Shown here: in pieces, positions 40,406-58,540 of the stretch
Layout: each line of letters starts with the position of its first letter
Position numbering within the stretch: position 1 is the first letter of the stretch
Notes under the pieces: model-generated
Databases searched by the model: none
Seen by the model: only the letters and a program-made list of their open reading frames with translations
What the model was told of the DNA's origin: nothing
DNA from: Erysipelotrichaceae bacterium
GTDB lineage: Bacteria > Bacillota_I > Bacilli_A > ML615J-28 > CAG-313
DNA: 64,000 nucleotides
Reading direction: 5' to 3'
Assembly: GCA_015059015.1 (NCBI GenBank)
Contig: SVBG01000003.1
Coordinates: 124,001 to 188,000, forward strand
Made by a program: the position numbers and the translations under genes

Positions 40406-43400
40406 TTAAGCTACAGTACCAGGAATAATTACTGATAATGTACGAGTCTTACCACCATAAGTTACAGTATAAGTTTGACAAGTTGAATATGTTGGTAAAC
40501 TTGTAACTCTACCTTTATCACCAATATATGAACTACTTTCACTAAATGTTGGAGCAGTACCACCAGCCTTAGGTGAAGATTTAGTAGAACCATTAGCTTT
40601 GAAGTAAGCCATTTCTTGTTCAACCATTTCAACAAAAATATACCATATTTCAAGTTCATTAGCTAGTAATGGTTGAGGACAGTCTTTACCAGAGAAGAAA
40701 TGATGAGGTACAAGACGTTGAATTGGTAAACCAAATTCGATTAATAACTTAGCACAAAGTTGTGCTGAATATTGCCATGTTAACCATAAGTCAGAAAGTT
40801 TTCTAACTGATGATTCAATACCAATTGAGTTACCATTACCACCTTGTGATGAAATATAACCATATGATGAGTTATAATAACATCCACCAATATACCATTT
40901 AGTACCACTTAATTTAACAGCAAGACCAGCTTTATTAAGTTTTGTATAACCAGTTGAATTAGCAACTGAAGTCTTCTTACCTTTAATGTAGAAGTAACCA
41001 TTCTTTAATGTTACATCTGTTGTATAAACATCAGTTCCAATATCAGATGTAGTTAAACCTGAATCGTACCAATATAATGTCTTATTAGAACCTGCATGCC
41101 ATGCACCCCATTTAGTATTTGCACAAGCATAAATACCATCCATACCTGTTGCATAGTGATATGAAACACCTGAAGCAGTTTGTTGATAAGCTGCTAAGTT
41201 CTTACCACCAGTCTTATAAGCAGTACCACCTTGAGGCATATCTGCTGCATAGTGGAATGTAACAAATTCAACACTACTCATTGTAGTTGTCTTAGTAGGA
41301 CTTGATAAATAATATGCAGTATTTTCATAGTAATTTGCAAATAATAATTGAGATACACTTCCATAAATATCAGTGTAATATTCAGGAGTTCCAGCACCAA
41401 TACCTAGGTTTTCTCTAATAAAGATATCTTCATTATTACTTTCAAGAATTACTAACCAAGCACCAGATGCTTCAGTAACAACAGTTACATAGAATGTGAA
41501 TTTAATTGTAGGAGCTTCTGTTGCATAAACAACGATAGTAGCTAAGCCTTCAGCAAGACCTGTAACGTTACCTTCTGAGTCTACTTCTGCAATACTTGGA
41601 GTACTTGATTTCCAAGTAACACTAATATTACTACCAGAAACAAATTGATGGTTAAGTTTAATTGTTTTACCTACTACAACCCATGAATTAGTTTCAAATG
41701 AACCAATTAAAGTATCATCAAATGTATATTTAGCAGTTACAAGAATCTTATCAATTCCTGCAAAGTCAGTATATGAATCATATAAGTTACCATTTGCATC
41801 ATACCAGCCACTGAACTTATAACCTTCTTTAATAGGAGTATCAAATACTACACTACTACTAATAGTTTGATTAATTGTAGTAGTTGCAAGAGTTCCTTTA
41901 TAGAAAGTAAATGTAACTAAATTTGATGATGAAGCACCAGTAAATGCTTTATCAAAGAATACATAGTCACCAGCTTCTAGTGCAGAAATATTTAAATTAT
42001 CTGCATAAGTACCTGTATATGAATCACTAACTGTAAGAATATATTCTGTTCCAGTAGGTTTTGAACTAACACCACTAGTTTGAACACCTAAAATTTCATA
42101 GAATCCAGTACTTGCATTTTTAGCAATGTATATACGTTTAGCCCCTTGAGGATTATAGTTTGTACTACCAACATATACAAATGTGTTAGAAGCATATAAA
42201 TCCCAGAAGTTTCCACCATAGTTACTTACTATTAATGAACCAACAGATCCGTTAGCCTTAATTAATTTTTCAGAAACACCACCATTGTAATCAAATGTAA
42301 CACCAGCACTAATATTTGAAAGTACCCAGTTTGCATAAACTGTTACAGCACCTGTAGTAGATGCAGAAATAGCAGTGATATAACTAGTTGAACCACTTGT
42401 TAATGACCAACCAAGGAATGTATAATCTTGTTTTGTAGGTACAGGAAGAGTAAATTCTTCTCCTTCTACATATTTAGTAGCAGCACCTTCTGGTAATTCA
42501 CCACCATTTACTTGATAGCTAATAGTTCCATAAGTAACAATCTTAGTGAATTTAGCAGTAAGTGTAATTTCATATACACCTAAGAAATCAGATACTGAAT
42601 CATATAAATTACCATTTGTATCATACCAACCATCAAATGTATAACCAGTTTTATATACTTTACTAATTAAAGAACTTTCATTTGTAATTGTATAATTAGT
42701 AGTTTCTGCAGTACTTAATTCATCCCAAAAACCATTATATTTAGCCTCGACAGTGAAATCTTCACTAGCAGGATATGAAGTATAATGTTGTTTAAATAAA
42801 AATGCACCAAGTGAATATCTCCAGAATTGGTCATTACCAGCTTCAAGTTGTGTTTTAGTATTTGCAACATCTGTAGCAGCAATAACATAGTCCTTTAACC
42901 AAGCCCATTTTGCAGCATAAGTTTCATCAACAAAAATGTCGTATATTGCACTAAATACATTAGCAAAACCAACAGTTGTAGGTGAAACATTTGTATGTAC
43001 ACCATCTGGTTTAGATGTTTTACCAAATTTAGTCATAGCATCAGTTAAGAAATCTTCAACCATAGCTTCACGAGTAGCATACTTAGTATTACCACCATTA
43101 AAATCGAATGTTACATTAGCATTAATTTCAGCACTCCAAACAGCTGTATATGTAATATCACCAGGATTTTCCATATAACCAGGATATTCTTTAATAATGC
43201 TACCATCTAAACTTGATCTCCAACCAGTAAATGATTCAGATCCATTTGTAGGAACAGGTAATGTTCCAGGTTTCTTTAATGTAGTAGTATAATTAGTTAA
43301 AGAATCTAAACTATTATAAACTTTAGCTACTTGAGGAGCAGTTTTTAAAGCATCTACATCAATATAAACATATTGACCAACAGCAAAATCACCAGTAAAA

Positions 43401-45106
43401 CTTACCTTAGAGTTTGCGATTGCATGAGTCCAAGTAGCACCATTAGCAGCATCAGCTAATGCTTTAGTAGCAGCATCAACAGCAACTACTTTATATAATC
43501 CAAGAGTACTATCATAATTTAAAAGCACTTTATATTGGAATTTTAGTGTAGAAACACCTGACCCAGGAGTAATATATGGAAGCATATATGTAACATCTGA
43601 AGCATAACCATTAGCAGCATATTTTTCAACTTCAAGTTCAAAATCTCCTGCAACATAAGATGAAGGTAATCTACCACCATTAGCATCAAATGTAACATTT
43701 ACATTTACATGTGTTGTTTGTTCTACTTTAGCATAGTAAACTTTATCACCAGTTGTACCAACTTCAATCATTTCAATTGGATCACCAGTTAATTCAGGAT
43801 TGTCATACCAACCTAATAAATCATATCCATCAAATACAGATTCTGGTAAATGGAAATCATCTTCAATATTATATGTACGTTCTAAATCAGTTAATTCAAC
43901 TTCACCGTACATATATTTAATAGTATAACATACAGGAGCAAATTGTGGAGCGTAAGAAACTGTTTCAGTTGGAACTTTAACAGTTGTAGATGCAACACCA
44001 GAACCTGAATCGTAACCTTCAAAGTTATAACCTTCATTAATTAAATCAGAAAGTTCTACTTCTTTTCCTATCATAACTAATTTAGGATTAGATGCAATAA
44101 TTTGATCGTTGTATTTTCCTATTTGTGCAAATGCACTAGAATCTGGGAATGCAACACCTGGATAATCATGAACATTTTCATAACCTGCACTAAAGAAATT
44201 ATGTAATGATCTAGAGAAATGCATTAATTTCCATAATTGAGTAACAGGAGTACCATTATTATCAACTTCATAAGTACCATTACCTAAAAGGGCATTAATT
44301 TGTAATTTTGAATGAACACCAGTAGCAGTTTCACCTAAGAAGAATTCTAATAACCAATCCCATTTAGCACTTGTTACAGGGTCTGTATTAAAGAATTCAT
44401 ATGCATTTGTTCCAGAACAGTCAGTATCTGTAGTTGCAGTTAAAGGTGCTGTACCTTCGATTGCACTTACATCAAAATCTTTATAATTAAATTCAGTCCA
44501 AGTAGTACCAAATTTAGCATTCCAGTCTTTAACAAATTCTTTTTCTAAATTTGCAGGGTTAATTTCGTATTTTGACACACCAAAGTTAACTGCACCATCG
44601 AAACCAACATATAATGTTTTATAATTTGATTCAACAAAATTAACTACATTTTTAACAAATGTTCCAGCTGCATCAGTATTATATGCAGTAAGTGCAACTT
44701 CACCAAGATTTCTAACTACTGTATTTGAAGAATATGTATAAGTATTTCCTACTTTAACATATGCTCTAACACTTATATCTTGACCTGCAGCAGATTGTGG
44801 GAATTTAACCATTGTAGCACTATATGATAAATTTTCAGCATCAACACCAGTTACAACTTGATTAATTACACCATTTGTTTCAGCAGTTAAATTAGCAACA
44901 TCGCCTTGAGCGAATAAGAAACCATAAACGTTTGAATCATTATGATTTGTAACATTGGCAACCCATCTTAAACCATTGTTTCCATCTGTTCTAATTTGAA
45001 CACCTTCAGCAAGATCAACAGTAGTTGCAGCATCTGCTTTAACTAAAGTTAAACTAACAGCAACAAAAGCTAAAGCAACTAATAAACTTAAAAAGATCTT
45101 TTTCAT
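40406..45106 (-). CDS. Giant secreted modular N-acetylmuramoyl-L-alanine amidase (paralogue 1)
   Basis: The 1566-residue exported protein has a signal peptide (residues 1-25), an N-terminal domain shared by the three paralogues (about 26-150), a W-rich helical module (about 180-340), several InlB/Flg_new-type repeats (FDANGG ... GYDLLGWYD), a second helical module in a repeat (about 675-800), a Big_2-like domain (VTWKSSTPSIAEVDSEGNVTG) and a C-terminal amidase_2/PGRP domain (about 1215-1480). Its zinc and catalytic residues are visible in TFHYAAD and PHHFFSGKDCP (His, Lys, Cys). It should cleave between MurNAc and L-Ala outside the cell. No LPxTG or SLH anchor is present. A 41-aa peptide gene lies just upstream and its stop overlaps this gene's ribosome binding site. 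Confidence 0.85.
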   Translation of the reverse strand: MKKIFLSLLVALAFVAVSLTLVKADAATTVDLAEGVQIRTDGNNGLRWVANVTNHNDSNVYGFLFAQGDVANLTAETNGVINQVVTGVDAENLSYSATMVKFPQSAAGQDISVRAYVKVGNTYTYSSNTVVRNLGEVALTAYNTDAAGTFVKNVVNFVESNYKTLYVGFDGAVNFGVSKYEINPANLEKEFVKDWNAKFGTTWTEFNYKDFDVSAIEGTAPLTATTDTDCSGTNAYEFFNTDPVTSAKWDWLLEFFLGETATGVHSKLQINALLGNGTYEVDNNGTPVTQLWKLMHFSRSLHNFFSAGYENVHDYPGVAFPDSSAFAQIGKYNDQIIASNPKLVMIGKEVELSDLINEGYNFEGYDSGSGVASTTVKVPTETVSYAPQFAPVCYTIKYMYGEVELTDLERTYNIEDDFHLPESVFDGYDLLGWYDNPELTGDPIEMIEVGTTGDKVYYAKVEQTTHVNVNVTFDANGGRLPSSYVAGDFELEVEKYAANGYASDVTYMLPYITPGSGVSTLKFQYKVLLNYDSTLGLYKVVAVDAATKALADAANGATWTHAIANSKVSFTGDFAVGQYVYIDVDALKTAPQVAKVYNSLDSLTNYTTTLKKPGTLPVPTNGSESFTGWRSSLDGSIIKEYPGYMENPGDITYTAVWSAEINANVTFDFNGGNTKYATREAMVEDFLTDAMTKFGKTSKPDGVHTNVSPTTVGFANVFSAIYDIFVDETYAAKWAWLKDYVIAATDVANTKTQLEAGNDQFWRYSLGAFLFKQHYTSYPASEDFTVEAKYNGFWDELSTAETTNYTITNESSLISKVYKTGYTFDGWYDTNGNLYDSVSDFLGVYEITLTAKFTKIVTYGTISYQVNGGELPEGAATKYVEGEEFTLPVPTKQDYTFLGWSLTSGSTSYITAISASTTGAVTVYANWVLSNISAGVTFDYNGGVSEKLIKANGSVGSLIVSNYGGNFWDLYASNTFVYVGSTNYNPQGAKRIYIAKNASTGFYEILGVQTSGVSSKPTGTEYILTVSDSYTGTYADNLNISALEAGDYVFFDKAFTGASSSNLVTFTFYKGTLATTTINQTISSSVVFDTPIKEGYKFSGWYDANGNLYDSYTDFAGIDKILVTAKYTFDDTLIGSFETNSWVVVGKTIKLNHQFVSGSNISVTWKSSTPSIAEVDSEGNVTGLAEGLATIVVYATEAPTIKFTFYVTVVTEASGAWLVILESNNEDIFIRENLGIGAGTPEYYTDIYGSVSQLLFANYYENTAYYLSSPTKTTTMSSVEFVTFHYAADMPQGGTAYKTGGKNLAAYQQTASGVSYHYATGMDGIYACANTKWGAWHAGSNKTLYWYDSGLTTSDIGTDVYTTDVTLKNGYFYIKGKKTSVANSTGYTKLNKAGLAVKLSGTKWYIGGCYYNSSYGYISSQGGNGNSIGIESSVRKLSDLWLTWQYSAQLCAKLLIEFGLPIQRLVPHHFFSGKDCPQPLLANELEIWYIFVEMVEQEMAYFKANGSTKSSPKAGGTAPTFSESSSYIGDKGRVTSLPTYSTCQTYTVTYGGKTRTLSVIIPGTVA

Positions 45107-45120
45107 AAAATTTTTACCTC

Positions 45121-45246
45121 CTATGCGAAGTAATCTTCGTCACCTTCTGCCCATGGGAAATCAATAACAACACTTCCACCAGCAGTAAGTACTTCAGATT
45201 CATAATTTAAAATTTCGATAGAAGGAGTTTCATAATTTTTATTCAT
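45121..45246 (-). CDS. 41-residue leader-like peptide upstream of amidase 1 (YETP peptide)
   Basis: This short frame has an AAAGGAG site and an upstream extended -10 promoter. Its product starts MNKNYETPSIEI, continues LNYESEVLTAGG and ends in an acidic aromatic tail SVVIDFPWAEGDEDYFA. A second copy at 53907-54032 differs at six of 126 nucleotides but only one residue (Leu to Ile), showing selection on the peptide. The stop codon TAG overlaps the AGGAGG of the amidase gene 14 nt on, so translation is coupled. The Y-x-x-P and T-x-G pattern resembles lasso/RiPP precursors, but no modification enzymes are near. No Cys, signal peptide or membrane helix. Confidence 0.85.
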   Translation of the reverse strand: MNKNYETPSIEILNYESEVLTAGGSVVIDFPWAEGDEDYFA

Positions 45247-45352: not shown

Positions 45353-45388
45353 AGAAAAATAAGGTTCCAATACACAAATTGGAACCTT
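45353..45388 (-). terminator. Rho-independent terminator after amidase 2
   Basis: AAGGTTCCAA pairs with TTGGAACCTT around TTTGTGTA, followed by ATTTTTC on the minus strand. Confidence 0.88.
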
Positions 45389-45399
45389 ATTTAAATAAT

Positions 45400-48300
45400 T
45401 TAAGCAACACTACCTGGAATAATTGTAGATAATGTAATAGTTTTTGTAGATGAACCATCTTTATAAGTTAAAGTATAAGTTTGACAAGTAGAATATGTTG
45501 GTAAACTAGAAATTCTACCATTTGAATCAATATATGAGCTACTTGTTGTTAAAGTAGGTGCAGCACCACAAGAACCATATGCTTCATAATATAATCTTTG
45601 TTGTTTACTCATTTCAAAGAATTCATACCAAATTTCTAAATCATTTTCTAACATAGGTTGAGGACAATCTTTACCAGAGAAGAAATGATGTCCAACTAAA
45701 CGTTGCATTGGTAGGTTAAATTGAATCAATAATTTTGCACAAAGTTGTGCAGAATATTGCCAAGTTAACCATAGATCTGATTTTTCTCTTACTGATGATT
45801 CAATACCGATTGAGTTGGTATTACCACCTAGAGAAGATATTAATGCATATGTTGAATTATAATAACATCCACCTAAGTACCATTTAGTTCCTTCTAATTT
45901 AACAGCTAACCCCATTGCATTAAGTTTAGTATATCCAGTTGTATTTTGAATACCAGATTTTATTCCTTTAATATAGAAGTATCCATCAGATCCAAGAGTA
46001 ACATCAGTTGTATAAATATCTGTTCCAATATCACTTGTAGTTAATCCAGAGTCATACCATTTCATTGATTTAGATGTTCCAGCATGCCATGCACCCCAAG
46101 CAACATTTTGACAATAATAAATACCATCCATACCTGTAGAATAATGGAATGAAACGTTATCAGCAGTATAATTATAACCAGCTAAATTTTTACCACCTGT
46201 TAAATAAGCACTACCACCTTGAGGCATATCTGCAGCATAGTGGAATGTAACAAAATCAATGCCATTAGTGCTTGCATCACCATCTAAATCATAAGTTTTA
46301 GTAGGTTCCGCAATATAGTAATCTTTATGTTCAACATAATCAACAAACAATAATTGAGAGACACTACCAATAATATCTGAATAGTAAGCAGGTGTACCAG
46401 AACCAATACCTAAATTATATCTAGTAAATATTGCTTCATTATTACTATCTAACAATACTTTTAACATACCACTTGCATCTTCAACAACTGTTACATAATA
46501 AGTAAATGATACACTACTATTATCAGTTACATAAACAACAATCGTAGCAACACCTTCTGCAAGACCAGTTACTAAACCATTTTGATCAACTTCTGCAATA
46601 TTAGGTGTTTCAGATTTCCATGTTACAGGTAAAGCTACACCTGATGCAAATTCATAATTTAGTTGAATTTCATTATTTATTTCAACCCAAGAATTATTTT
46701 CAAATGAACCTATAATCTTATCATCATATTTCCAATTAGCTGTAACTGTAATACTAGATATTCCCGCAAAATCAGTAACTACATCATATAAATTCCCTTT
46801 TGAATCATACCAACCAAGGAATGAACATCCAAGTTTTGTAGGAGATGGTAATGTTGAATCAAGTGTTATTGTTTCAGTTTTTATATCATTAGAAATATTA
46901 TTTGAATAGAAAGTAAATGTTACAAGATTTGATTCACTAGCAGTCGTAAATGCTTTATCAAATAAGATAACATTCCCCACTGCAATATTTCCTACTTTAA
47001 AATTATCATCATATGTTCCTGAATAAGCATTAGCTATAGTAATACATACTTCTGCTTCTTCTGGCCAAACAGAATTTGATACACCGCTTAAAACAATTTT
47101 CACAACTTTATATAAACCAGTAGCAGAATCCTTACCGATATAAATACGATCAGAGAATAATGCTCCTGGAGTAGTAGATTTAGTATTTATGTAAATATTT
47201 GTTTTATAAGGAGCACTAGAATTCCAATAATCAGTCGCGTTATATTTACTAGCAATTAAAGAACCTAAACTTGTTCCATTAGATAAATATAATGCTTCAG
47301 TAATACCACCATCATAATCAAATGTTACACTTGCATTAACTTCTTCAGGTTCTTCATCTACATAACCTTGATAAATAGACATTGTAACTACATTTGAAGT
47401 ACTAGCCTTAGTAACATCTTTATCAAATAAAACTAAATTTCCAACACTAACACTATTAAAATCAAAGTTATCATCATATGAACCTGAATAATCAGATGGA
47501 ACTACAATACAGTATGATGCACCAGTTGGCCATCCACCAGAAGTACCAGCAGGGACAAGTTTTAATACTTTTTGTAATCCAGTTTCTGAATCAAGTCCAA
47601 TATAAATTCTATTTGAGAATAAAACACCAAAATATGTACTTGAATCATTAATAAATATATTACTCTTATAAATATATGTAGATGTATCGAAATAATCATT
47701 TTCACTAGTATTATATTTACTAATCATTAATGAAGTTACTTCTTTCCCTAATGCAGAATCCCATTCAGCTGTATAAGTTATATCAGCAGTTGTAGTTTTA
47801 TAACCAGGAAATTCAGTAACAATAGTATTATCTAAACTTGATTTCCAACCTACAAAATCATAATTTGTTCTATAAACAGTAGGTAAAGTAGTTGGATCTT
47901 GAAGGTAAGTTGGTTCAGCAAAATATTCATTCCACCAACCTTCAGTTTGTGAAGTAAAGTCAGAACAAGTAAATTTACTAGCAAAACCACTTAATCCGTA
48001 ACCACCACTATCAGTAGCAGCAATTGCAGTAGCATAATTAGTTCCAAGTAAAACTAAAACAATATTTTGCGTAGCATAACCAGATAACGAAGATCCTTCT
48101 AATATAATATCAACATATTGAGTATCAACACCTTGTTTAATATGCATATCTTTAATATACTGAATCATCCATAACCATTTATTACGGAATTCAGTATTAG
48201 ATAATCTCCATACAGTTGATTTATTACCATTTGCATGATAATCAGCAGGAGTTAATAAAGTAACACCTAATAAATTACCAGCATCAGTTAAGAAATCACT

Positions 48301-49767
48301 AACTAAATCATCTTGTGATGCATAGCCATAATAACCACCATTTAAATCAAATGTTACATTAACTTTAACATAGTCTTGAACTTCATATTTTGCATAAAGA
48401 ACCCTATCACCAGTTGTTCCTGCAGAAATCATTTCAATAGGATCACCTGTAAAATCAGGATTATTATACCAGCCCATAAAATCATAACCAGTAATTTCTG
48501 GTGTTGGTAAATAGAAATATTCTTCTACATTATAGTTCATTGCAAGATCAGTTAATTCTTCATTACCATTCATAAATGTAATTGAATAACTTACAGCACT
48601 AAATTGAGGTGTTAAACTTACATCCTCATTTGTAATTGTAATTGAATTAGAAACATCACTATTTGAATCTAAATATCCATCAAAATTATATCCATCTTTA
48701 TTGATTGTATTTAAATCAACTTCTTCACCTATTTTAACTAGAATTGGCATAGATGCAATAACTTGATCATTATATTTACCAATTTGCATTAAAGCATTTG
48801 AATTATTAAATGAAATTGAAGGCCAATCATTAATATTTTCACTACCTGCTTTAAAGAAATTATGAAGTGCTCTAGATAAATGTTTAAATTGCCATAATTG
48901 AGTATAAGTAGAAGTTCCACTAGTTAATGTATATTCACCAGTTTCACTTAATAACGCATTAATTTGTAACTTAGGATGAATACCTGTTGCAGTTTCACCT
49001 AAGAAAAATTCTAATAACCAACCCCATTTAGCACTAGTTTCTTGATTTGAATTAAAGAATTCGTACGCATTTGTACCCGCACAATTAGTATCAGCATTAG
49101 CAGATAATGGTACAGACCCTTCAATTGCACTAGTATTAAATGTTTCATAATTAAATTCAGTCCATGATGTACCAAATAGCGCATTCCAATCCTTAACAAA
49201 TTCTTCTTCTAATTTGACAGGATTAGTTTCATATTTAGCAGATGAAACACTAATAGCACCATCAAAACCAACATATAAAGATTTATAGTTTTGATCAACA
49301 TATTCAACAACATTATCAACGAATTCTTTAGAATTTGTTGAATCATACACTGCTAAAGCTACTTCTGCAAGATTTCTTACAACTGTATTATCAGAATACG
49401 TATATGTATCACCAACTTTAACATATGCTTTAACACTTATATCTTGCGCCACAGCGGATGTAGGAAATTTAACCATTGTAGCACAAAAAGAATTATTATC
49501 ACTTAATCCATTAACAACTTGATTAATTACACCAGGTGTTTCGACAGTTAAATTATCAACTTCTCCTTGTGCAAATATAAATCCATAAACGTTATCTTCA
49601 TTATGATTTTTAACATTAGCAACCCATTTTAACCCATTATTTCCATCTGTTCTAATCTTAACACCATTAACAAGTTCAACAGTAGTTACATTATCTGCTT
49701 TAACAAAAGTAAAACAAATTGAAATTAATGATAAAATTACCAATAAACCTAAAAAGATTTTTTTCAT
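45400..49767 (-). CDS. Giant secreted modular N-acetylmuramoyl-L-alanine amidase (paralogue 2)
   Basis: The 1455-residue paralogue has the same plan: signal peptide, shared N-terminal domain (GVKIRTDGNNGLKWVANV), a W-rich helical module (about 185-340), InlB-type repeats with a second helical module (about 475-630), two further related repeat blocks (NVVTMSIYQGY and NLVTFTFYSNN), a Big_2-like domain (VTWKSETPNIAEVDQNG) and the amidase_2/PGRP domain with TFHYAAD and GHHFFSGKDCP. The C-terminal 350 residues are very close to paralogue 1. Unlike the other two, it has no upstream peptide gene; its untranslated leader (GGAGTAGAAGATTATG) looks like that of the peptide genes. No cell-wall anchor is seen. 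Confidence 0.85.
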   Translation of the reverse strand: MKKIFLGLLVILSLISICFTFVKADNVTTVELVNGVKIRTDGNNGLKWVANVKNHNEDNVYGFIFAQGEVDNLTVETPGVINQVVNGLSDNNSFCATMVKFPTSAVAQDISVKAYVKVGDTYTYSDNTVVRNLAEVALAVYDSTNSKEFVDNVVEYVDQNYKSLYVGFDGAISVSSAKYETNPVKLEEEFVKDWNALFGTSWTEFNYETFNTSAIEGSVPLSANADTNCAGTNAYEFFNSNQETSAKWGWLLEFFLGETATGIHPKLQINALLSETGEYTLTSGTSTYTQLWQFKHLSRALHNFFKAGSENINDWPSISFNNSNALMQIGKYNDQVIASMPILVKIGEEVDLNTINKDGYNFDGYLDSNSDVSNSITITNEDVSLTPQFSAVSYSITFMNGNEELTDLAMNYNVEEYFYLPTPEITGYDFMGWYNNPDFTGDPIEMISAGTTGDRVLYAKYEVQDYVKVNVTFDLNGGYYGYASQDDLVSDFLTDAGNLLGVTLLTPADYHANGNKSTVWRLSNTEFRNKWLWMIQYIKDMHIKQGVDTQYVDIILEGSSLSGYATQNIVLVLLGTNYATAIAATDSGGYGLSGFASKFTCSDFTSQTEGWWNEYFAEPTYLQDPTTLPTVYRTNYDFVGWKSSLDNTIVTEFPGYKTTTADITYTAEWDSALGKEVTSLMISKYNTSENDYFDTSTYIYKSNIFINDSSTYFGVLFSNRIYIGLDSETGLQKVLKLVPAGTSGGWPTGASYCIVVPSDYSGSYDDNFDFNSVSVGNLVLFDKDVTKASTSNVVTMSIYQGYVDEEPEEVNASVTFDYDGGITEALYLSNGTSLGSLIASKYNATDYWNSSAPYKTNIYINTKSTTPGALFSDRIYIGKDSATGLYKVVKIVLSGVSNSVWPEEAEVCITIANAYSGTYDDNFKVGNIAVGNVILFDKAFTTASESNLVTFTFYSNNISNDIKTETITLDSTLPSPTKLGCSFLGWYDSKGNLYDVVTDFAGISSITVTANWKYDDKIIGSFENNSWVEINNEIQLNYEFASGVALPVTWKSETPNIAEVDQNGLVTGLAEGVATIVVYVTDNSSVSFTYYVTVVEDASGMLKVLLDSNNEAIFTRYNLGIGSGTPAYYSDIIGSVSQLLFVDYVEHKDYYIAEPTKTYDLDGDASTNGIDFVTFHYAADMPQGGSAYLTGGKNLAGYNYTADNVSFHYSTGMDGIYYCQNVAWGAWHAGTSKSMKWYDSGLTTSDIGTDIYTTDVTLGSDGYFYIKGIKSGIQNTTGYTKLNAMGLAVKLEGTKWYLGGCYYNSTYALISSLGGNTNSIGIESSVREKSDLWLTWQYSAQLCAKLLIQFNLPMQRLVGHHFFSGKDCPQPMLENDLEIWYEFFEMSKQQRLYYEAYGSCGAAPTLTTSSSYIDSNGRISSLPTYSTCQTYTLTYKDGSSTKTITLSTIIPGSVA

Positions 49768-49837: not shown

Positions 49838-49873
49838 AATAAAAAAAGCGATTATTTCAGTGAAATAACCGCT
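49838..49873 (-). terminator. Rho-independent terminator after amidase 3
   Basis: AGCGGTTATTTCA pairs with TGAAATAATCGCT, followed by TTTTTTATTTC on the minus strand. Confidence 0.9.
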
Positions 49874-49880
49874 TAATATT

Positions 49881-52800
49881 TTACCCTTCAGATCCTGGAA
49901 TAGTACTAAAATATGTTACAGAATTTGAAACACCAGTAGTTTTATCAGTTAATGTAATAGTATAACTAACTACAGTATCATCTTCAGGAACTTTAATAAC
50001 ACGACCTGTATTAGAAACATATTCTGTGTTATTTGAAACAAATGAAATAGTATAATTACTAAACTTAGTTAATAATTCATATTCATACTTAACTAAATCC
50101 ATGAATTCCCACCAAATTTCCATATTGTTTTCAAGCATTGGTTGAGGACAATCTTTTGCAGTATAAGCATGGTGAGGTCTAACTCTTTCTAATCCAAGAT
50201 TATTATCATAGCAAAGTTTTGCAACAAGTTGAGCTGTTTTTTGCCATGTATACCAAAGGTCAGATCCTTTATCTACACAGGATTCAATACCAATTGAATT
50301 TAAGTTACCACCACTAGCGCAAATACGCCCTTCATGAACTTGAGTATAGCACCACCATGTAGTTCCCATATAATATTCTCCATTAACAACTTTTACTGGG
50401 AATCCCCAATCATTAAAGAATGATTCAGCAGAACGATTTGAGAAAGCACCACCTGTATAATCTGATTGTGAACTAATAGTTCCATTAGAATTAAATATAT
50501 GATCTGTATTTCTTGAACTATAATTATATGTTGATGGTAGTTTAATTGAAGTCTTCTTACCATTGATTTCGAAATAAAAATCATCAGATGCACTCCAATT
50601 AATGTGTAATAAATCAGCACCATCATAAGCAACACCAGTTGCATTCCAAGTAAAGTATCCTACTTGATCAACAGATGCACCATCACCAGCATGCCAAGCT
50701 CCTTTATCATGCGTTAATGCTTGATATACACCATCATTACCAGTTGTATAATGAATTGAAGTACTATTATCAGATACAAAATATTTTGCATTAGCCAATG
50801 CATTAGCACCAGTTGACATATTACCAGTATAGTGAACAGTTACAAATTCAAGTGATCTTAACGTATTAAAGTCATCTACCTCAGAATTAGCATAAGTAGT
50901 ATCAATTACTAATGAATCATTAAATAATATCTTACTAACACTACCATATATATCTGTGTAATATACTGGAGTTCCAGCACCAATACCTAATTGTGATTTT
51001 GTATATACTTGATTATTATGAGCTTCAGAAATAATACTGAAAATTTCACTTAAACCTTCAGCAATAACGGAAATAGAAACTGTTAAATTAACTGAAGGAT
51101 CACCAGAATCATATACATAAATATCAACTGTTCCTTCACTAACACCTGTAACTAAACCTGTTTGATCAACAGTTGCAATACTAGTATTTTTACTTTCCCA
51201 TACAAAATTACCAACTAATTCACCAGAAATAGCAGCATTTAATTGAATTGAATTATCAACTTCAGTAAATGGATCAGTATCATATGTAACAATAATTGAA
51301 CTTGACCATTTAGCATAATAAGTAATTACACCTGGATTAGTGTAGTAACCAGGATATGTAGTTACTGCATCACCAGTTAATGATTCATTAGTGTACCAAC
51401 CTTTAAATGTATAACCTTGTTTGAATGGTTTAGGTAAAGTGCAAGGATCAGTATATACATAACTTGTAGGAAGTGTATTAGCAGTATTGAATGCAGATTT
51501 AACAGATTCACTACTATAATCAGCAGATACAAAATTAGTATTTTGTGAATATTTAGCTTGTCCTACCCATCCACGAAGTTCATAAGCCACTGAATAAATG
51601 TAATTACCATTTGCAGCATTTAATTCAGATTGTGATGTATAATTATAAAAATTCACAAATGCATTTTTATTACTACCACCAGCAACACCAGCAATATAAT
51701 TTACAAGCCAAGTCCATTTTTCTTTATAATTTGAATTATATAAGAATAATGAAGCATCAGAAATTTCTCCCCATGATCCTAATGCATAGAATGTTTCAGG
51801 AGTATGAGATTTATTTCTTGCAGTATTATAATCTTTTAAGAAATCAGCAATAGCATCATCGACTGTATTATAATTTACAAATGCTCCACCATTAGTATCA
51901 TAATTAACAGTAACGCTTTGTAATTGAGAGACCCATTGTGCAGTATATGTAATATCACCTGGATTTGATGAATAACCTGGGAACTCAGTTACAACACTAC
52001 CATCAACACTTGATTTCCAACCAGTAAATGTATAATAATTATGTGTTGGAACTATTAAAGAAGTTGGTTCAGATAATACCATATTCAATGTTGTAGGATA
52101 AGCATTACTAGGGTCATTTGTTTTAATATATTTTAGATCTGTATCTTTTAAAACTGGTGTTTTTAAGAAAACAAGATACTCTCCAACAGTATATTGCTTA
52201 GTAACATTAGTACTTGAACTTGAAATAGCATGTGTCCATGTTACACCAGCATTAGTAGCAACAGAATTAGCACCTGCAGTTGCAGCATCAACCGCAACAA
52301 CTTTATAAGCATTTAGACTTGAGTCATATTGTAATAATGCTTTATATTGCCATCTTAAACTATTATTGCTAGTTACAGCAGTATCACAGAAATAAATACC
52401 ACTTGCTAAACCAGTATTAGAATATTCACCCAATGTTTCAATATTTGAAGCATATTCTAATGGGAAATATCCGCCATTAGCATCTAGAGTTACATTAACA
52501 TTAGCATAAGTAGCTTCTTCTACTTTTGCATAATATACTTTAGCGCCAGTAGTACCAGCAGTAATGGTTGTAATTGCATCACCATTTAATTCAGCATTAT
52601 CATACCATCCTAAGAAATTATAACCATCAAATTGAGGAGTAGGTAAAACTACTTCACTTTCTACATTATATGTTGAAGCTAAACTAGTTAATTCTTCAGC
52701 ACCATTAAAATATTTAATTGTATAAGAAATAGTTTCATATTTTGGAACAAAAACATAATTTAATTCACTATCTAATGTGAAATTAGATCCTACTTCATAT

Positions 52801-53891
52801 ACATTTTCATTATATGTCCACGAAGAAGTATAACCATTTTTATAATTAGTTTCAGGAAGAATTATATCATCACCATTATTTATAAATGAGCAATTAGCAT
52901 TTTTAGTATAAATAATATTATTGTAGTTTACTAATAAACTTAATTTAGTAGGATTTTTTGAGAAGTTATAACTTCCCCATCCACTTGATGCATAATCACC
53001 TAGCATTATAGACATTATATAAGAACATAAATGTCCACCATAATACCAATTTGCTGTATCTTCAACATTATTTATAATAGCTTCAGCTTGAGCTTTTGCA
53101 AAACTATGCCCTGTACCATTTGAAAGTTCATTAATAATATAATTTAATAACCAACCCCATTTAGCATACATATCTTCATTTTGGAAGAATTCTTTTAATT
53201 TAGCACCTTCCCAAGAAGATTGTACTGAAGTCTTAGCAGATTTATACCATGTAGAACTAGAACCACCAGTAAAAGCACTATCAGCATTTAATGAAGTAGC
53301 AAATAATGTATTCCAATCATTAATAAATTCTACTGCTAACGTTTTAGGATTTGTTTCATATAATGCATTATCATAATATAAATTTCCAATTGCATCAGTA
53401 AATGTTTTCTTATAGTTTTCACCAACATATTCAGCAACAGCATTTACAAAATCACCCTCAACAGAGTTTTTAGCATAAACAGCAACTTCTGCAAGGTTTC
53501 TAACAACTACATTTGAGTAAGAATAATCTTCACCTACTTTAACGTATGCAACAACAGAAATATCTTGTGCAGCAGCAGCTTTAGGGAAGTTAACCATTGT
53601 AGCTGACATATAAGGTTCTTCTTCAGTTACACCTTCAACAACTTGTTTAACAACACCAGTTGTTTCAACAGTAACTTCTGCTAAATCACCTTTTGCAAAT
53701 AAGAAACCATATTCATTGCTTTCAACATGGTTTTCAACATTAGCAAACCATCTTAAACCATTATTTCCATCAGTTCTAATTTGTACACCTTCTTCTAATG
53801 AAACAGTAGTTGTTACATCAGCTCTAACAAGTACAACACTTAATGATAGAACCATGAAAACAGTTAATAAACTTAAAACTATTTTTTTCAT
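49881..53891 (-). CDS. Giant secreted modular N-acetylmuramoyl-L-alanine amidase (paralogue 3)
   Basis: The 1336-residue paralogue has a signal peptide (1-25), the shared N-terminal domain (GVQIRTDGNNGLRWFANV), a W-rich helical module (about 180-335), InlB-type repeats (FDGYNFLGWYDNAEL), a second helical module (about 665-815, with EKWTWLVNYIAG), a Big_2-like domain (FVWESKNTSIATVDQTG) and a C-terminal amidase_2/PGRP domain with VTVHYTGN and PHHAYTAKDCP. The amidase part is more divergent than those of paralogues 1 and 2. The 41-aa peptide gene precedes it and its TAG stop overlaps the GGAGGA site. It is followed by a separate terminator, so each paralogue is its own transcript. Confidence 0.85.
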   Translation of the reverse strand: MKKIVLSLLTVFMVLSLSVVLVRADVTTTVSLEEGVQIRTDGNNGLRWFANVENHVESNEYGFLFAKGDLAEVTVETTGVVKQVVEGVTEEEPYMSATMVNFPKAAAAQDISVVAYVKVGEDYSYSNVVVRNLAEVAVYAKNSVEGDFVNAVAEYVGENYKKTFTDAIGNLYYDNALYETNPKTLAVEFINDWNTLFATSLNADSAFTGGSSSTWYKSAKTSVQSSWEGAKLKEFFQNEDMYAKWGWLLNYIINELSNGTGHSFAKAQAEAIINNVEDTANWYYGGHLCSYIMSIMLGDYASSGWGSYNFSKNPTKLSLLVNYNNIIYTKNANCSFINNGDDIILPETNYKNGYTSSWTYNENVYEVGSNFTLDSELNYVFVPKYETISYTIKYFNGAEELTSLASTYNVESEVVLPTPQFDGYNFLGWYDNAELNGDAITTITAGTTGAKVYYAKVEEATYANVNVTLDANGGYFPLEYASNIETLGEYSNTGLASGIYFCDTAVTSNNSLRWQYKALLQYDSSLNAYKVVAVDAATAGANSVATNAGVTWTHAISSSSTNVTKQYTVGEYLVFLKTPVLKDTDLKYIKTNDPSNAYPTTLNMVLSEPTSLIVPTHNYYTFTGWKSSVDGSVVTEFPGYSSNPGDITYTAQWVSQLQSVTVNYDTNGGAFVNYNTVDDAIADFLKDYNTARNKSHTPETFYALGSWGEISDASLFLYNSNYKEKWTWLVNYIAGVAGGSNKNAFVNFYNYTSQSELNAANGNYIYSVAYELRGWVGQAKYSQNTNFVSADYSSESVKSAFNTANTLPTSYVYTDPCTLPKPFKQGYTFKGWYTNESLTGDAVTTYPGYYTNPGVITYYAKWSSSIIVTYDTDPFTEVDNSIQLNAAISGELVGNFVWESKNTSIATVDQTGLVTGVSEGTVDIYVYDSGDPSVNLTVSISVIAEGLSEIFSIISEAHNNQVYTKSQLGIGAGTPVYYTDIYGSVSKILFNDSLVIDTTYANSEVDDFNTLRSLEFVTVHYTGNMSTGANALANAKYFVSDNSTSIHYTTGNDGVYQALTHDKGAWHAGDGASVDQVGYFTWNATGVAYDGADLLHINWSASDDFYFEINGKKTSIKLPSTYNYSSRNTDHIFNSNGTISSQSDYTGGAFSNRSAESFFNDWGFPVKVVNGEYYMGTTWWCYTQVHEGRICASGGNLNSIGIESCVDKGSDLWYTWQKTAQLVAKLCYDNNLGLERVRPHHAYTAKDCPQPMLENNMEIWWEFMDLVKYEYELLTKFSNYTISFVSNNTEYVSNTGRVIKVPEDDTVVSYTITLTDKTTGVSNSVTYFSTIPGSEG

Positions 53892-53906
53892 AATTTTAAT
53901 TTCCTC

Positions 53907-54032
53907 CTATGCGAAGTAATCTTCGTCACCTTCTGCCCATGGGAAATCGATAACAACGCTTCCACCAGCAGTAAGAACTTCAGATTCATAATTAATGATT
54001 TCGATAGAAGGAGTTTCATAATTTTTATTCAT
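53907..54032 (-). CDS. 41-residue leader-like peptide upstream of amidase 3 (YETP peptide, second copy)
   Basis: The product differs from the copy at 45121-45246 only at residue 13 (Ile for Leu). It has an AAAAGGAGAAA ribosome binding site and a good sigma-A promoter. The stop TAG overlaps the AGGAGGA site of the amidase gene, whose ATG is 15 nt further on. Of six nucleotide differences from the other copy, most are synonymous. Y5-E-T-P8, Thr21 two residues before Gly23 and a 19-residue C-terminal segment with Asp at its position 7 fit the outline of a lasso peptide precursor; this is inference only. Confidence 0.87.
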   Translation of the reverse strand: MNKNYETPSIEIINYESEVLTAGGSVVIDFPWAEGDEDYFA

Positions 54033-54064: not shown

Positions 54065-54093
54065 ATTATATCATATTTAAAAAATTATTGCAA
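54065..54093 (-). promoter_or_regulatory. Sigma-A promoter of the peptide-amidase 3 unit
   Basis: TTGCAA (54088-54093), 17-nt spacer, TATAAT (54065-54070) with an extended TGA on the minus strand. Confidence 0.82.
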
Positions 54094-56467: not shown

Positions 56468-58540
56468 TTATTTCTTTAAAGCATCACCAAGAAGATCACC
56501 AATAGTGCTACCAGTGTTTTCTTGTTCTTGTTCTTTCATATAAGAATCAAATGATTCTCTTTCTTTAGCAACTTCAATAGCTTTAACTGAAACTACTAAT
56601 TTTGCACGATTTGGATCGCATTCTAATACCATAGCATTAACTTTAGTTCCTGCAGCAAATTCATCAGTTACATTAGTAACGCGTTTAGAACTTGAAACTT
56701 CATTAACAGGTAAGAAACCAGTAACTGTTTTATAAGTAACTTCAGCTCCACGTTCTACATCACGTACTACTTCAACTTCAACAATTTCACCTTTACGAAG
56801 CTTAATTCCGCTCCATGCATTTTCAACAGTTTCACGATGTGATAAGCTTACTCTAAATTTCTTATCATCAATATTCATTACTTTAACTAAGATTTTGTCG
56901 CCTTCATTAACAACACCATCATATTTTTCATTTACTAACCAAGAGTATTCCATTTTAGACATTAAACCAGAATATTCAGGAGTAAGTTCAATAATTAAAC
57001 CAGCTGGAATAATTTTCTTAACTGTACCTTCAAATACATCACCAACATGATATTTTTCTTTTAATACTTCCCAAGGATGAGTAGTTAAAGCTTTCATTGA
57101 AAGACCAATTTTTTCTTCATCAATCTTAATAACTTTAACAGTAACTTTTTTACCAACTGATAAAACTTTCTTAACATCACGAACAGGGAAATGATCAATT
57201 TCAGATGCATGTAATAAACCACTTACTAAACCAAGTTTAACAATTGCACCATAAGCAAGAATTGATACAACTTCACCTTCAACAACTTGACCAACTTCTA
57301 AAGCACCATAAGCTGCTTCTTTAGCAAGTCTCTTTTGTTTCTTTTCAGCAGCAATTTGGCTAACTGAAATGAAATGACGTTCTTCATTTACATATAATAC
57401 GATAACAGGGATTTCTTCACCTTTTAATTGTTTTAAAGCATCTTCACTAAGTGATGAATGTTTATAAGATAAGAATAGTTTAGTATTATTATAAAGTAAT
57501 TCTGCACCATTTTTTGTAGTTCTTAATACTTTAGCATTGATAACTTCATCAGCTTCTTTAATAGCATGGAATTGAGCAATTTTTTCTTGTAATGCTTTTT
57601 CTTTTGCTTCAGCTTGTTCTTTTTCATAAGCAAGTTTAGTTGAAAGATATAAAACTACAACATTAGGGTTTTTCTTATCTTTACCAATAGACTTAACTTG
57701 AGCAGTATATTCTGCACCTTCAGAGTATTCTAAATATAATTTACCTGGTACTTCTAGTAAATCATTTGCATAGATTACAGCCTTAACTCCTTCTTCGATT
57801 TCTAAATAAATTGCATTACTGTTTACACCAGTAACTGTACCTGTAACAGTTTGTCCTACATAGTACTTTTCGTTCTTTTCGCTCATTTTAATTAAGCCCC
57901 TTTCATTCACTAATTTAATAATTTCACTCACTACCTCATCGATTGTCATATCTGATGAATCGACAACGATAGCGTCCTCAGCACATTTTAGAGGACTGAT
58001 TTTTCGCGTTGAATCTTTATGATCTCTAGTTTCAATTTCAAGCATAGTTTCTTCCAATGACTTGAATATTCCACTTTGTTCGCGCTCTAACATTCTTCTT
58101 TTAGCACGACATTCAACGGATGCAATTAAGTAGATTTTAAGTTCTGCATTAGGAAGAACGACAGTACCAATGTCACGTCCATCCATAATTACACTCTTAG
58201 AATCACTTATTTTACGTTGATAATCAACTAAATAACTTCTGACAACACCTATCTTTGATGGAGTAGAAACGTTCTCAGTTACTTCAACGGTTCTAATAGC
58301 TTCAGATACATCTTCACCATCCATAATAAATCTACCATTACAAATATCAAGGACAGTAGAACTTAAAAATCCATAAGCATTTTCATCTTCCATATCAATA
58401 CCAAGACGTAGTGCTTTAAGTGTTACAGCACGATACATAGCACCAGTATCGATATATTCAATATTTAATTTTTTTGCTAATATTTTAGCAATAGTACTTT
58501 TCCCAGCACCTGCTGGACCGTCAATAGCAATTTTAAACAT
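56468..58540 (-). CDS. Fusion of cytidylate kinase with ribosomal protein S1-like protein
   Basis: The 690-residue frame begins with a full Cmk (residues 1-216: P-loop IAIDGPAGAGKST, DTGAMYRAV, MDGRDIGT) that phosphorylates CMP/dCMP. It continues without a stop into an S1-type protein with five S1 repeats (starting at about 229, 328, 413, 498 and 583; the second and fifth are degenerate). The junction reads NERGLIKMSEKNEK: the internal Met219 (57886) is where a free S1 would start, and a GAAAGGGG site (57896-57904) lies 10 nt before it. The S1 part may therefore be made both as a fusion and alone. In Bacillus the two genes are adjacent but separate. A GAGGTGA site precedes the first ATG. Confidence 0.93.
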   Translation of the reverse strand: MFKIAIDGPAGAGKSTIAKILAKKLNIEYIDTGAMYRAVTLKALRLGIDMEDENAYGFLSSTVLDICNGRFIMDGEDVSEAIRTVEVTENVSTPSKIGVVRSYLVDYQRKISDSKSVIMDGRDIGTVVLPNAELKIYLIASVECRAKRRMLEREQSGIFKSLEETMLEIETRDHKDSTRKISPLKCAEDAIVVDSSDMTIDEVVSEIIKLVNERGLIKMSEKNEKYYVGQTVTGTVTGVNSNAIYLEIEEGVKAVIYANDLLEVPGKLYLEYSEGAEYTAQVKSIGKDKKNPNVVVLYLSTKLAYEKEQAEAKEKALQEKIAQFHAIKEADEVINAKVLRTTKNGAELLYNNTKLFLSYKHSSLSEDALKQLKGEEIPVIVLYVNEERHFISVSQIAAEKKQKRLAKEAAYGALEVGQVVEGEVVSILAYGAIVKLGLVSGLLHASEIDHFPVRDVKKVLSVGKKVTVKVIKIDEEKIGLSMKALTTHPWEVLKEKYHVGDVFEGTVKKIIPAGLIIELTPEYSGLMSKMEYSWLVNEKYDGVVNEGDKILVKVMNIDDKKFRVSLSHRETVENAWSGIKLRKGEIVEVEVVRDVERGAEVTYKTVTGFLPVNEVSSSKRVTNVTDEFAAGTKVNAMVLECDPNRAKLVVSVKAIEVAKERESFDSYMKEQEQENTGSTIGDLLGDALKK

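Follow-up and report, generated by a model that had tools for sequence, protein, structure and literature searches.

Two near-identical peptide genes in the window, the whole 64,000-nucleotide stretch of DNA analysed here, are likely to encode precursors of a lasso-related, non-lasso maturation system that is guided by an RRE and paired with secreted proteins. The peptide family, its leader, an enzyme cassette, their co-occurrence and the pairing are all features of the sequences themselves. Gene A1 (53907..54032, minus strand), identified as an ORF with a family match, encodes the 41-residue product MNKNYETPSIEIINYESEVLTAGGSVVIDFPWAEGDEDYFA, in which the leader MNKNYETPSIEIINYESEV is followed by an acidic and aromatic C-terminal part. 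Its 41-residue twin A2 (45121..45246, minus strand), identified in the same way, differs from it at six nucleotides and one residue, I13L. The earlier note had described both genes without their strand, and both prove to be real ORFs with the differences that it had counted. DNA identity between the copies is 95% in the peptide gene, 69–74% over the next 400 nucleotides and near background in the upstream region, so that it is the peptide itself that is held constant. By their substitution pattern the twin genes are under purifying selection (dS 0.21, dN 0.015, dN/dS ~0.07), and dN/dS is below 0.4 in all other comparisons among peptides of the same type (type A), with the exception of A1/A3, a pair too alike to measure.

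The source genome, that of a gut bacterium of the Bacilli (2.01 Mb, 14 contigs), yielded 13 family matches in a protein search and 15 after profile searches, the 15th being C8:493-633. With 15 leader-sharing copies in one genome, the twin ORFs are not chance occurrences. The constant part of all 15 is an N-terminal leader resembling K-x-[YF]-E-x-P-x-I-E-I-I-x-[FY], and the C-termini differ. Type A comprises five of the copies, the window twins plus one each on contigs C2, C8 and C3; six own copies end in ...NLGPNDEWYDSNVDMGGWI or variants of it, and further C-termini include ...SSIVIEYPWGSDYDVFFEE and ...STSSFGDVETYGGAQESSNGWLPWL, among others. An identical 38-residue type-B peptide is encoded by four genes (C3:8461, 37751, 67291 and C7:148787), each of which heads a different giant secreted protein; one reading that we offer of these identical copies is recent spread or conversion of a module made up of peptide and signal sequence. 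Contigs of related draft genomes end at peptide genes (G035:C19, G023:C37/C82/C96 and G022:C25), as would be expected if such a module is repeated, and draft genomes likely hold more peptide copies than are counted.

A plain YxxP regular expression had no value for finding the peptides among small ORFs (37 matches versus 55–59 in controls), whereas the leader profile was specific. The search of related genomes for YETP-like peptides and their neighbours, which the earlier note had proposed, returned about 50 family peptides from Bacilli and Clostridia, and no model in Pfam or NCBIfam matches the peptide. Among 50 family peptides, the cores are acidic (216 D/E vs 19 K/R), 41 peptides carry an aromatic residue within the last six positions, and 47 carry Ser/Thr near the leader/core junction; no core Ser/Thr position is common to all core types.

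The same note had asked for a genome-wide search for an RRE, and exactly one PqqD (PF05402) protein scored over cut-off, encoded on another contig (C3:14611-14886). Its gene overlaps that of a 147-residue S26/S24-like protein, which is followed in the same operon by the gene for a 232-residue protein; together the three genes span C3:13484-14886. The best matches of the PqqD profile among solved structures are the lasso B1 RREs TbiB1 (2.8e-8) and TfuB1. YxxP is the recognition motif of lasso RREs (PMC12710340), and both a B1-type RRE and a YxxP leader are present here. In the family of the 232-residue protein, the P-loop GTGKST is conserved; the structural model (pLDDT 94.8) matches HprK/P (1.6e-5) and PEPCK in Foldseek, and the NCBIfam matches are to ScmC and HprK-related kinase, below cut-off only. 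The protein is predicted to be an HprK-fold kinase. In the 147-residue family, Ser28 (SMxP box), His66 (HR box) and Asp81 (GD box) are invariant in 55 of 55 relatives, and the model adopts a signal-peptidase/LexA-like fold; SipA, LexA and signal peptidase match it only weakly in Foldseek (E values between about 1e-3 and 1e-2, the best being 1.1e-3). From these features an S26/S24-like Ser/His protease is predicted. Against curated families, the putative kinase and protease gave matches below cut-off or none. In many relatives this gene trio comes with NTP_transf_5, an ABC exporter or a radical SAM gene, the last in some only, and fusions of the types HprK-PqqD, S24-NTP, HprK-rSAM and HprK-S24 occur. 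The cassette of the source genome contains no radical SAM gene and is adjoined by no exporter; the only strong NTP_transf_5 of this genome (C11:32408-33575; L163 8409-9575) lies outside it, in a polysaccharide-type locus with epimerases and a flippase.

Peptide and cassette occur together well beyond this genome. In an order sample of 39 genomes, each 80% complete or better, the leader profile was found in 10, PqqD in 10 and both in 9 (Fisher 4.6e-7, kinship ignored), and peptide and PqqD change together in the within-genus contrasts G035/G015, G017/G029+G030 and G026/G031. Across 247 Bacilli genomes, the leader was found in 25, a B1-like RRE in 42 and both in 24 (Fisher 6e-21, kinship ignored). 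Outside the order, 18 genomes bear the peptide, none of which served to build the profile, and 17 of them carry an RRE. PqqD was not detected in peptide-bearing G003 (88% complete), nor in G070 of the class sample. In nine peptide-bearing Bacilli genomes the peptide and the RRE lie no more than about 5 kb apart, with cassette and peptide side by side and, in most of these loci, a secreted protein as well. Among small ORFs of 80 named loci found through their RRE, the leader profile gave 18 matches (E<=1) and 0 in reversed sequence; about half of the 18 belonged to the training set, and the independent, true-looking matches are L114, L118, L123, L142, L147, L148, L155 and a second L084 peptide. 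Linkage of peptide and cassette extends to Clostridia (e.g. L084, L123, L142 and L155), where the evidence is a set of individual loci rather than a genome sample. L142 (Clostridium manihotivorum CT4) and L147 (Clostridium sp. C8-1-8) have an operon of the order radical SAM - YxxP peptide - HprK - PqqD - S24 and a peptide core of Cys, Gly and basic residues; both are cultured clostridia and tractable hosts.

The suggestion in the earlier note of a precursor modified by enzymes encoded elsewhere in the genome is supported by the B1-type RRE/kinase/protease operon on C3, by the class-wide co-occurrence and by relatives that carry this cassette right beside the peptide gene; the modification itself we infer. 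The features expected of an RRE-dependent RiPP were found, namely a short encoded precursor with a conserved leader and a variable core (15 peptides in the source genome and about 50 in the family) and a linked or co-occurring RRE with candidate modifying enzymes.

Lasso biosynthesis requires B2 and C. The earlier note had fitted the type-A peptide to a lasso outline, in which a ring would close between Gly23 and Asp29 after cleavage by B2. The type-A copies do satisfy T-x-G and Asp/Glu at position 7, the RRE is of the lasso B1 type, and the strict fits to T-x-G with an acceptor at positions 7–9 (6 of 50 family peptides; 10 of 50 under a loose definition) exceed those in shuffled tails (mean 1.2). 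However, five of the six strict fits are type-A copies of the source genome, a single lineage, and the outline is missing in the other 44 of the 50; in the same genus, one homologue has Asn at the acceptor position (HTVGGSIVINFPW) and another has Glu at core position 1 (LTAEASVVIEFPW). The enzymes that the note had expected are likewise missing: the own genome gave 0 matches to transglutaminase-type B2 (PF13471) and two sub-cut-off fragments only to asparagine-synthetase-like C (PF00733), and the six genomes of the class sample with a B2 match include none of the 25 that bear the peptide. With both B2 and the cyclase missing, and with the Gly1/Asp7 outline lost in close homologues, we reject the lasso precursor, which we consider extremely improbable barring a cyclase that went unrecognised. 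B2-like and PqqD genes are neighbours in L071 (G014:C48), together with ABC and radical SAM genes, and in G106:C90; the YxxP family is missing from both genomes, and these loci probably represent a different, lasso- or sacti-like cluster.

In the window, each twin is followed by a giant amidase gene. The stop codon overlaps the Shine-Dalgarno sequence of the next gene in both copies (GCATAGGAGG), as TAGGAGG at 53903..53909 (minus strand) for A1 and likewise at 45117..45123 (minus strand) for A2, and the amidase starts 14–15 nucleotides on, in agreement with the original description. By domain search, the partner of A1 is a 1336-residue secreted Amidase_2/Flg_new/Big_2 protein with a signal sequence (49881..53891, minus strand) and that of A2 a 1566-residue secreted Amidase_2/Flg_new protein (40406..45106, minus strand); between them lies the gene for a paralogous 1455-residue amidase (45400..49767, minus strand) with no peptide gene of its own. 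All three amidases combine an Amidase_2 domain with repeats of the Flg_new and Big_2 types. A terminator-like stem-loop 3' of the 1336-residue amidase (49846..49874, minus strand; stem-loop scan) probably ends the A1 unit and cuts the middle amidase off from the preceding gene, and a second, found by the same scan, lies 3' of the middle amidase and upstream of A2 (45357..45392, minus strand). The promoter attributed to the peptide genes is found for A1, as a sigma-70-like TTGCAA-17-TATAAT at 54065..54093 (minus strand; 10/12 match, scan only), but for A2 a TATAAT is present and no match is better than 9/12. Elsewhere in the window, a 690-residue ORF (56468-58540, minus strand) resembles cytidylate kinase fused to an S1-domain (RpsA-like) protein.

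Most of the own copies abut a giant secreted gene, encoding amidases, BspA-type LRR proteins or Flg_new proteins, and among the 31 order peptides there are 23 whose stop lies −20 to +19 nucleotides from the start of the following gene, which encodes a hydrophobic N-terminus. The pairing is also seen in other Bacilli. These spacings, together with the stop/Shine-Dalgarno overlap and 14–15-nucleotide gap of both window copies, would suit a cis-acting leader ORF whose sole job is to set amidase translation by termination-reinitiation. Such coupling, which the earlier note had put forward as its second possibility, may hold locally: the overlap probably couples amidase translation to that of the peptide and would keep the pair in proportion. 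It is not a general role, since the peptide lies 3' of the secreted gene in the own copy C8:493-633 and in G001, G004c, L182, L186 and L188, and since a terminator-like sequence directly follows the own peptide gene C8:262-396. At L066 1636-1901 (G039:C159), a tandem pair of overlapping YxxP peptide genes, whose cores are dissimilar, has no giant secreted gene near. In the Clostridia loci examined, the peptide is usually 17–35 nucleotides 3' of a large protein of 446–2923 residues (L084, L123, L125, L129, L150 and L154; the large ORF of L123, as called, has no clear signal sequence). Gene order and the tandem and standalone copies led us to reject translation as the sole function; a pure leader ORF also leaves the tight co-occurrence with the RRE cassette unexplained and sits poorly with purifying selection on the amino-acid sequence, and we regard it as quite unlikely.

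The conservation of the pairing in both gene orders and in two classes would equally be expected if the peptide were a small partner of the secreted protein, such as a chaperone, inhibitor or subunit, with the RRE cassette a mere fellow traveller. However, the conserved portion is the leader and not the core, this leader bears a known RRE motif, and the cassette-adjacent peptides and class-wide co-occurrence tie the peptide to the RRE, which makes this reading, too, rather unlikely. No convincing LPxTG motif and no convincing membrane segment at the C-terminus was found in any of 32 partners, and a possible lipobox in only 2 of 32, both counts being made with no control set; one might speculate that the near-absence of partner anchors leaves room for the peptide to retain or modulate its partner.

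In the RRE-guided maturation that we favour, the binding, modification, cleavage, export and function of the peptides are our inference. Acting in trans, the RRE would bind each of the ~15 unlinked precursors by its YxxP leader and present them to the kinase, which would phosphorylate Ser/Thr near the leader/core junction; NTP_transf_5, where present, would decorate the phosphate, the S26-like protease, taking the part of lasso B2, would cut off the leader, and an acidic linear product would be exported. In the bsf system, both phosphorylation by the HprK homologue BsfK and the cleavage of YxxPxL precursors by B2 require the discrete RRE BsfB1; core Ser3 was seen to be phosphorylated, and Ala changes in YxxPxL did not block phosphorylation (PMC10368454), so that recognition need not depend on YxxP alone. 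In pseudomycoidin, a nucleotidyltransferase adds hexose to the phosphate (PMC8498205). By analogy, the present precursors are probably phosphorylated. As each precursor would be co-encoded with a large secreted protein, with genes overlapping or abutting in either order, the product most likely acts with this partner at the cell surface.

More tentatively, these genes might define an undescribed RiPP-like class of gut Bacilli and Clostridia, in which phospho- (or phosphoglyco-) peptides made by an RRE, a kinase and a protease are obligate partners of large secreted proteins; a role within such a class could, speculatively, be to attach or display surface proteins with no recognisable anchor. 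In the open-access literature we found no description of the HprK/PqqD/S26 peptide cassette or of the pairing, only lasso or unrelated work, and a prior description is possible. If our proposal is true, a RiPP-like system has been assembled from lasso parts (B1, kinase and nucleotidyltransferase) without lasso chemistry, and the S26-like protease is the likely leader peptidase. The system offers a way into the many short YxxP peptides of gut Firmicutes that are annotated as “hypothetical”, and raises the question of why a putatively modified peptide and a giant surface protein form one unit, in either order, in two classes.

The present system shares a PqqD-family leader binder, and in some relatives radical SAM proteins, with the PqqD-radical SAM systems of PQQ, mycofactocin and sactipeptides; unlike in those systems, radical SAM is not constant here, and the nearest solved RREs are of lasso B1 type, not PqqD proper. 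The models of the SynChlorMet cassette (NCBIfam TIGR04248-04251, ScmC/D/E/F), for HprK-like ScmC, PqqD-like ScmD and the radical SAM proteins ScmE/F, are among those in NCBIfam that come nearest to the present cassette proteins, with all matches below cut-off; the own cassette lacks radical SAM, and we know of no secreted-partner pairing in SynChlorMet. In prochlorosin-type systems, one enzyme handles in trans many scattered precursors that share a leader but differ in their cores. The many precursors, single leader and varied cores recur here, as would the trans handling, but the leader, RRE and enzymes are unrelated, and a further difference is the coupling of the precursors to secreted proteins. 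With the kinase-bearing lasso clusters (paeninodin, pseudomycoidin and Bradymonas bsf with BsfB1/BsfK/BsfN), the system has in common a YxxPx[LI] leader, a discrete B1-type PqqD RRE, an HprK-homologous kinase and a nucleotidyltransferase (PMC10368454, PMC8498205). Unlike those clusters, it lacks both B2 and the C cyclase and has an S26/S24-like Ser/His protease instead; its peptides conserve neither ring residues nor a C-terminal Ser, and its precursors are multiple and unlinked and come in pairs with secreted proteins.
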